A stretch of DNA of 64,000 nt from Pelagicoccus sp. SDUM812005. Its GTDB lineage: Bacteria > Verrucomicrobiota > Verrucomicrobiia > Opitutales > Opitutaceae. The position numbers were made by a program, and so were the translations under genes. Each line of letters begins with the position of its first letter. The first letter of the stretch is position 1. The notes beneath the pieces were generated by a model. The model had not been told where the DNA came from, did no database searches, and saw nothing but the letters and a program-made list of their open reading frames with translations. Shown here piece by piece: positions 31,245 through 32,884 of the stretch. Location of the stretch: positions 1 through 64,000 of the forward strand of contig NZ_JARXIA010000016.1 of NCBI RefSeq assembly GCF_031127875.1, in the 5' to 3' direction.

Positions 31245-31341
<97 letters not shown>

Positions 31342-31400
31342 CCTTTTTCCCTTTTTTTCGGGCGACTTGGGTCAAGCCGCCCCATTCCTTTTCCCAATCA

Positions 31401-32546
31401 ATGAGCCAAGGCTATCAGGTAATCGCCCGCAAGTGGCGTCCGCAGAAATTTGACGAAGTCGTCGGACAGGACCATGTGGTCCGCACCTTGAAGAATGCGA
31501 TCGAGCAAAATCGGATCGCCCATGCCTACCTTTTCGTCGGTCCGCGCGGTACTGGAAAAACAACTACCGCCCGTATCTTCGCCAAGTGCCTCAACTGCGA
31601 AGGCGGACCCTTGGCCGAGCCGCCGGAAGATTCCGAGATCTGCCAGGCCATCATGAACGGGACTTGCATGGACGTGCTGGAAATCGACGGCGCCTCCAAC
31701 AACGGCGTCGAGCAGGTCCGCGCCTTGCGCGAGGACGCCCAGTACGCTCCGAGCCAAGGCAAGTACAAGGTCTACATCATCGACGAGGTGCACATGCTCT
31801 CGACCGGCGCCTTCAACGCTTTGCTCAAGATCCTCGAGGAGCCGCCCGAGCACGTTAAGTTCGTCTTCGCGACGACCGAAGCGCACAAGGTGCTGCCCAC
31901 CATTGTTTCCCGTTGCCAGCGTTTCGACCTGAAGCCCATTCCCGAGGACTTGATCCGCGAGCGCCTAGCCTTGATCTGCAAGACGGAAGGCATCGAAGCC
32001 GACGAGGACGCCCTCAAGGCGGTGGCGCGTTTGGCCGACGGCGGCATGCGCGACTCCCAGTCCATCCTCGACCAGATGATCGCCTTTTGCGGCACCAAGA
32101 TTACGGAGCCGGACGTGCTGCAGGTTTACGGGCTCGTGAGCGGCGAGCACATCGACGAGCTCGCCAAGTCCATCGCCACCGGCGACCACCCGCGCTTGTT
32201 GGAATTGAGCGACCAGTTCGACGCGTCGGGACAAGATTTCTACCGCGCCCTGGTAGACCTGCAGGCTCGGGTGCGACGCGCCCTGCTGGAGGCGGTTCGG
32301 GGCGGCGGCAAGACGGCCAGCCTCGGGGAGGAGTTGAGCACGGAGTCCTTGACCCGTTTGCTGGACAGCCTCCGCCAAAGCGAGTCCGGCCTGAAGTTCG
32401 GACTGAGCGAAAAGGTGAATTTCGAAGTGGCCCTTTTGAAAGCCTCGGAAGAGTGCCGGGCCCGTGCCATCGATGGCTTGATTCGCGAGCTTTCCAGCAT
32501 CGCGGAAGGCTTGCCGGAGACCGCTGACGAAAAAAAAAACGACTGA
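31401..32546 (+). CDS. dnaX: DNA polymerase III subunit gamma/tau (DnaX), zero-frame product
   Basis: The product is 381 aa, about the size of domains I-III (the clamp-loader part, gamma-like). DnaX is the ATPase motor of the clamp loader. It shows [13 protein letters not shown], Walker [13 protein letters not shown], a zinc-binding Cys set (CLNCEG, then C in [11 protein letters not shown]), Walker [11 protein letters not shown] and sensor motif [15 protein letters not shown]. The frame ends ADEKKND-stop just after a run of ten A (32530-32539). The sequence stays open in the -1 register to 32884, so a longer tau-like form of about 494 aa is likely made by slippage. Confidence 0.95.
32516..32539 (+). 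promoter_or_regulatory. Candidate dnaX slippage site: A10 run with upstream Shine-Dalgarno-like GGAG
   Basis: Codons run GAC GAA AAA AAA AAC GAC TGA, so the ten A at 32530-32539 contain in-frame A-AAA-AAA and A-AAA-AAC heptamers. GGAG lies at 32516-32519, about 10 nt before the run, the spacing that stimulates -1 frameshifting in E. coli dnaX. Runs of this length also allow RNA polymerase slippage, as in Thermus dnaX. Short GC-rich hairpins are possible downstream (e.g. GCTCCC/GGGAGC near 32605-32620). Confidence 0.65.
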
Positions 32547-32884
32547 CGGTTCCGGAGCGTAAGCCCTACGTCCGCTCGCAGATCGCTCCCGCGCCTGAAC
32601 GGCTCGCTCCCGTGGGAGCGCCCGAGGCCAGCCCCTTCGAGAATCGGGAAACGGAGGGCGACGAAGACTATATCGACGCACCGAGCGAATTTGACCTGGC
32701 GGAAGAGCTGGGCAGTTCCATGCCGATCCGCGACGAGGATATTATTCCCGACGACGGGAAGGAGTTGCCGCCGTTGGAGATGGTGGAGAAGCGGATTCCC
32801 GAAAAGACGCGCGTGCTGATGGAGGAGCTTTTCCGGGCCAAGCTCAGCAAGGTGCAGCGCGTCAACCCGAAGAAGATCAAGTAG
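32540..32884 (+). CDS. Candidate C-terminal extension of DnaX read in the -1 frame
   Basis: Beyond the A run, the -1 frame is open for 114 codons ([14 protein letters not shown]...) to TAG at 32882-32884. Its third codon positions are strongly G/C, as in real genes here. The composition is acidic with a basic end ([15 protein letters not shown]). There is no good independent start with a ribosome binding site; the first possible start in this frame is a GTG at 32612. It therefore looks like the tail of a tau-like DnaX isoform, not a separate gene. An error in the homopolymer length is the main alternative: one more A would fuse the two frames outright. Confidence 0.65.

Follow-up and report, generated by a model that had tools for sequence, protein, structure and literature searches.

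The dnaX gene in the window, which is the 64,000-nucleotide stretch of Pelagicoccus sp. SDUM812005 analysed here (contig NZ_JARXIA010000016.1, positions 1 to 64,000), is very probably a transcriptional-slippage gene that would give two products, a gamma-like protein of 381 aa and a tau-like protein of about 494 aa. The case rests on four features of the sequence: an A run, stops in both of the frames that do not lead into the tail, conservation of the tail as a protein, and differences in the phase of the tail between relatives. That slippage occurs, how efficient it is and that the tail has the role of tau are what we infer from them.

The zero frame of dnaX extends from 31401 to 32546 on the forward strand, as do all the features given below, and closes over the run as GAA AAA AAA AAC GAC TGA. 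The ten A residues lie at 32530-32539 and are followed by C, and the TGA that ends the short form is at 32544-32546. Beyond the run the -1 frame stays open for 114 codons (32540-32881) and ends in TAG at 32882-32884; the 30 residues encoded at 32792-32881 form a conserved C-terminal motif, identified with a profile of 112 family members. The zero frame closes 2 codons after the run and the +1 frame 7 codons after it. Direct reading of the sequence therefore confirms the initial annotation, which had the A10 run joining the 381-aa frame to an open -1 frame of 114 codons. The GGAG that it reported 10 nt upstream of the run is present at 32516-32519. It had also described the -1 frame as having no start of its own with a ribosome site and this agrees with our reading, because the first start-type codon listed in that frame is a GTG at 32612, which opens a 90-aa ORF, and no ribosome site is seen before it.

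The 381-aa product is clearly a DnaX core (NCBIfam NF004046, 466.8 bits; TIGR02397, 430.5 bits), with an AAA+ ATPase, a lid and domain III. PF13177 and PF22608 are matched in Pfam, and PF12169, which represents domain III, falls just under the Pfam cut-off (22.8 vs 24.4 bits), so the clamp-loader ATPase is recognized outright and domain III narrowly below threshold. This is the sole full-length dnaX in its genome, the two further matches being short and partial. The 114-codon tail has no match in Pfam or NCBIfam. Comparison of the tails with the C-terminus of DnaX from other Verrucomicrobia gave a weak profile match for the -1 tails (23.4%); the values were 2.5% for relatives with the tail in the zero frame and 0.3% for those with the tail in +1. 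The initial annotation had called the tail short, acidic and unlike the classic tau domains IV-V; on this weak match it may or may not correspond to the C-terminal domains with which tau binds polymerase alpha and DnaB.

A run of nine A in 64 kb is not remarkable, since shuffled sequences contain 0.82 on average and 21 of 100 shuffles reach the observed number of 2. The 6.65 Mb genome holds eight A or T tracts of at least 10. By eye, two other A10-A11 tracts in this genome (loci L361 and L362, at about position 1501) lie a few bases after an ATG; no forward open frame of more than 300 nt is listed there. What exceeds chance at dnaX is the conservation of the run, in 8 of 8 genomes of the genus and in 236 of 254 loci of the order, and not the A9 by itself.

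All 8 genus genomes have A10, the same zero-frame stop, a closed +1 frame and a tail in -1. Of the 28 genus pairs, 6 are saturated; in the 22 for which dS can be estimated, the tail read in the -1 frame has dN/dS between 0.03 and 0.28. The core is more constrained than the tail (dN/dS 0.01-0.07 across the genus; pooled pN/pS of 0.07 for the core vs 0.29 for the tail). Differences in the tail are concentrated at third codon positions, with 678, 544 and 1770 at positions 1, 2 and 3 over the 28 pairs. The tail is therefore under purifying selection. This extends to the first 24 codons after the run, 5' of the GTG at 32612, where pooled pN/pS is 0.36 and where 6 of the 8 genomes have no start-type codon.

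The order sample comprises 254 genomes with one dnaX locus each, which is fewer than all genomes with a match (344 genomes matched in one search, for example); in another search 5 of 80 genomes had no dnaX match (G115, G119, G136, G179 and G208). Among the relatives, L001-L006 bear names such as Opitutales, Opitutaceae and Puniceicoccaceae, L007 is Cephaloticoccus primus, and the others are grouped by code. The initial annotation had proposed looking in relatives for a conserved A run and tail, and both are found: the junction carries A9-A13 in 236 of the 254 loci and a homologous tail is assigned in 233. Single run lengths may be wrong, as many of these loci come from draft or metagenome assemblies. 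Shorter runs of A7-A8 occur at 5 further loci, and the other 13, one of them at a contig end, lack a run. These 18 loci without a run of at least 9 include G025, which ends at the contig end; the other 17 are divided between small-genome families (10) and the rest of the order (7). The run is present in 21 of the 26 families sampled. Outside the order, the junction is covered in 62 of 63 outgroup loci, L195 stopping short of it, and a run of at least 9 A is seen at none of these junctions; outgroup L017 has an A10 about 100 codons downstream of the junction.

The same tail is found in all three frames. Frame length and the C-terminal motif place it in -1 at 173 loci, in the zero frame at 38 and in +1 at 22, and at 3 loci close to contig ends no frame could be assigned; the tail classes were defined with a run of at least 9, so the count of 173 is partly a matter of definition. 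The zero-frame stop comes within 15 codons in 173 of the 174 loci first called -1. The exception, G190, was placed in -1 by frame length and moved to the zero-frame class by the motif. The motif profile was built from 112 -1 tails of the window's own family, and on the 121 loci outside this seed set it matched in the assigned frame in 102 (-1, 51; 0, 36; +1, 15) and gave no hit in 19. Profile comparison also joins the classes, at 97.8% for the -1 against the zero-frame tails and 96.8% for the -1 against the +1 tails, although the zero-frame and +1 sets were restricted to loci in which the motif was hit, which leaves the comparison not fully independent.

Changes of phase are frequent. Two core trees require at least 16 and at least 17 of them, the second tree having weak support at 84 of 257 inner branches and joining long branches. 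Phases are mixed within six genera, g32, g92 and g115 among them. In one genus (g92) A9 with the tail in the zero frame stands against A10 with the tail in +1, and in one congeneric pair with similar flanks G038 has A11 and a zero-frame tail whereas G075 has A10 and a -1 tail. An A11 giving one continuous frame was what the initial annotation had taken as evidence against slippage; it is seen in this pair, where it fits slippage, and in the window's genus the run is A10 in 8 of 8 genomes. Whatever the phase, the run is accompanied by stops. In 222 of 233 loci neither non-tail frame stays open beyond 15 codons, and in the remaining 11 at least one does, whereas in the core control both close this early at 1287 of 8854 positions (14.5%); the closure and phase counts come from related loci that are not phylogenetically independent, and they imply no probability.

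These observations are best explained by transcriptional slippage rather than by ribosomal -1 frameshifting. RNA polymerase would slip on the A10 to give a pool of mRNAs with differing numbers of A. Faithful transcripts, or those with a multiple of three extra A residues, would be translated as far as the TGA that closely follows the run, yielding the 381-aa gamma-like clamp-loader subunit. One extra A, or two fewer, would put the -1 frame in register and give the tau-like subunit of about 494 aa with its conserved C-terminal motif. The third class of transcript would meet a stop after a few codons and give another gamma-like form. Because such a pool would sample all three frames, the genomic frame of the tail should matter little, and the tail frame could therefore have drifted among -1, 0 and +1 in the order, with the run and its neighbouring stops preserved. 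If polymerase slips, one expects a long uninterrupted stretch of A, a tail that can be reached by a shift in either direction, and early stops in the two frames that do not carry the tail. The order has a conserved A run of 9 or more, tails in either direction and closure of both non-product frames just after the run, and for this reason slippage is favoured. The gamma-like and tau-like products that the initial annotation had predicted are thus supported by the run, the tail and the stops across relatives. Its mechanism stands as slippage on the A run, with the transcriptional form favoured, but the GGAG does not stand as a signal.

Programmed -1 ribosomal frameshifting into the tail, on A_AAA_AAA or A_AAA_AAC and perhaps aided by the GGAG, is the main alternative and we consider it unlikely. 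Such a slip and a transcript with one extra A can yield identical residues. The window does have a -1 tail, tandem AAA codons and the GGAG 10 nt upstream. Additionally, G follows the run in 124 of the 173 -1 loci, mostly forming A_AAA_AAG, which is a good ribosomal shift site; there, slipping by ribosomes may contribute alongside transcriptional slippage or take its place. However, frameshifting in one direction gives no explanation for a tail that occurs in three frames, with 22 loci in +1 and 38 in the zero frame that retain the run. The run also exceeds what a frameshift heptamer would require: a -1 tail was found by frame or motif in 174 loci, and 173 of these, all but G257, have at least 9 A. 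To reach such a length the run generally has to start one codon ahead of the Lys codons, and among the 173 -1 loci this starting codon is GAA 130 times and TCA 18 times; in the cores GAG (2325) outnumbers GAA (1389), and TCA makes up 170 of 3142 Ser codons. An SD-like element and downstream RNA structure were considered as conserved signals of the window's class and rejected. SD-like words are found in only 29 of the 173 -1 loci, where about 10% would be expected under the null, so the GGAG is probably incidental. Downstream folding is unremarkable both in the window (z 0.55) and across a sample of 27 -1 loci, which average z -0.04 and were drawn with a ceiling of 4 per family and class. SD-like words are enriched in the zero-frame class (16 of 38; null about 10%), but are not read as an SD signal because the same stretch forms a hairpin in families f19 and f20.

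The other explanations are weaker still. Phase variation, in which DNA replication would alter the run length and cells would switch between forms, is very improbable: run length and phase do differ between species, but A10 is constant in the 8 genus genomes though synonymous sites are near saturation, and the non-tail frames are closed whichever phase is present. A sequencing error or pseudogene, with a true run of A11 and a single frame or with a decaying tail, seems scarcely credible. Homopolymers are error-prone and the A10 and A11 of the congeneric pair elsewhere could be read in this way, but the shared junction of all 8 genus genomes and the low dN/dS of the tail argue against it in the window. 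Equally implausible is a separate small gene in the tail, translated by coupling or from the in-frame GTG at 32612 with its 90-aa ORF. Of the 173 -1 loci, 35 do have a start-type codon no more than 5 codons past the run and 47 no more than 10, but the median distance from run to start-type codon is 24 codons, the stretch just after the run is conserved in the genus and mostly lacks such a codon, and 38 loci carry the homologous tail as an in-frame extension of the core. A separate gene or re-initiation is judged unlikely, though less firmly so for the 35 loci with a near start.

One relative differs from the preferred scheme of transcriptional slippage. G257 (locus L307, family f21) has no A run at the junction, near locus position 1117-1170, and its tail is still in -1. 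The junction instead has A_AAA_AAC, with GGGAGAG 8 nt upstream and a stem-loop just downstream (-15.9 kcal/mol; the 61-nt fold has z -2.08, a value matched by 8 of 200 shuffles). This looks like a switch to ribosomal frameshifting of the E. coli type, in a single genome that is 80% complete and whose genus has no other representative among the 17 f21 genomes.

Other families appear to have added an RNA structure to the run. In f19, f20 and f23 (for example L186, L255, L288 and L290) a strong hairpin ends about 1 base 5' of the A run, its register differing in some f19 loci. The mean energy of the 30 nt 5' of the run is -13.1 kcal/mol in f19 and -15.4 kcal/mol in f20, compared with about -5 in their own cores. 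Several other families also fold better there than their cores, such as f1 (-9.5 vs -6.3) and f24 (-12.5 vs -6.0), and in f10, f14, f18 and f26 the stretch folds no better than the cores. The helix pairs in 89.6% of cells in a set of 16 distinct 30-mers of one register. Both partners are altered in three of the pairs, in a single sequence each time; the number of pairs is equalled or exceeded in 5 of 500 shuffles, that of further pair types in 394. The structure of the hairpin is thus supported and the covariation is modest. This count left out identical 30-mers (G230, G212, G231 and G140), f19 30-mers of other registers (G180, G376, G303, G199, G297 and G247, with the copy G139) and the sole f15 sequence, G117; a separate alignment of 23 sequences includes the other registers, and no pairs were counted on it. 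The window has no such 5' hairpin (z -0.03).

Loss of the run is concentrated in lineages with small genomes. No run of 9 is present in any of the 10 loci read from f6, f7, f25, f27 and f28, all of which have small genomes (L344-L348, L350-L352, L355 and L357). In f7 and f25 the motif is kept in frame, with weak hits (E 0.0002-0.04); in f27 the likeness of G161 to the motif is by eye only (E 8.8), and in f28 and G131 the protein ends with the core. Family f26, which has small genomes too, retains A9 and a -1 tail. Outside the small-genome families, the zero frame carries the motif in G294, G107, G110, G187 and G238, none of which has a run of 9, and slippage seems to have been lost in these as well.

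Taken together, the data make it reasonably likely that dnaX in this order is a slippage cassette that is free of phase. The tail frame would have been free to drift many times among -1, 0 and +1, sometimes by a single A, while selection kept the run, the tail and the stops in the other frames. Some families would have added a hairpin in the nascent RNA, at least one lineage, that of G257, would have replaced the run with a ribosomal frameshift signal like that of E. coli, and several lineages with small genomes would have given up the run and retained a single product.

The following comparisons draw on excerpts of the cited papers. The dnaX gene of Thermus thermophilus is expressed by transcriptional slippage and has stops in both other frames (Larsen et al., 2000, as described in PMC1088944 and PMC5009743). 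As in the window, there is an A run of at least 9, the nearby stops lie in both non-tail frames and gamma and tau come from one gene, but Thermus tau is in the zero frame whereas tau in the window would need a slip. The 38 relatives with a zero-frame tail share the Thermus layout. Genes for DnaX that need recoding to make tau were predicted in 2013 as a GeneTack two-ORF cluster, 9 of whose 17 members have A10 (PMC3711429). The window has this two-ORF layout, in which the zero frame gives the short form and the tail follows the poly-A run in -1, and a transcriptional mechanism was proposed for the cluster also. The genera named in the excerpt are Chlorobi and the cluster consists of -1 genes, whereas here +1 and zero-frame tails coexist with -1; Opitutales may already be among the two-ORF genes. 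On this account the window gene is a further case of an already known recoded dnaX. The initial annotation had noted that the zero frame gives the short form and the slip the long form, the reverse of E. coli; this holds, and the arrangement was the one described in 2013.

Escherichia coli dnaX, which uses a -1 ribosomal frameshift (PMC5009743), likewise makes two clamp-loader products from one gene, but its slip leads to the short form and it relies on a heptamer, an SD-like element and a downstream stem-loop that are not conserved here. An unpublished candidate cited in PMC5009743, the reversed dnaX of Chlorobium phaeobacteroides, resembles G257 in that tau would be made by frameshifting with E. 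coli-like stimulatory signals, and is by analogy a precedent for it; it belongs to another phylum, and the window lacks such signals. In a Roseiflexus IS transposase, a nascent-RNA stem-loop stimulates slippage (Penno et al., 2015, as described in PMC5009743). It lies directly 5' of the run, like the hairpins of f19, f20 and f23, but the motif is T5C5 and the product of slippage a one-base deletion, and the window has no hairpin of this kind. In Shigella mxiE slippage is required for the long product, as proposed here, but in another gene and on a run of U residues (PMC1088944).

Retention of the system across the order, the +1 form, repeated switching of phase, the 5' hairpin in some families and the single E. 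coli-like lineage are apparently new. In the open-licence literature we found no description of order-wide retention, of the +1 form or of repeated phase switching, and no paper on Opitutales together with transcriptional slippage or a dnaX frameshift. dnaX is a textbook case of one gene giving two replication proteins by different recoding routes, and the cassette, if real, would connect the Thermus, two-ORF and E. coli solutions as members of one natural series. That the run is retained while the tail frame changes suggests that selection sees the pair of products and not the reading frame. The order also offers closely related gene pairs that allow a direct test of the mechanism. For annotation pipelines there is a warning, in that dnaX here is neither broken nor complete at its first stop.

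Finally, a gene for the bacterial small SRP RNA lies directly 5' of dnaX in the window, at 31245-31343 on the forward strand (Rfam RF00169, 60.1 bits).
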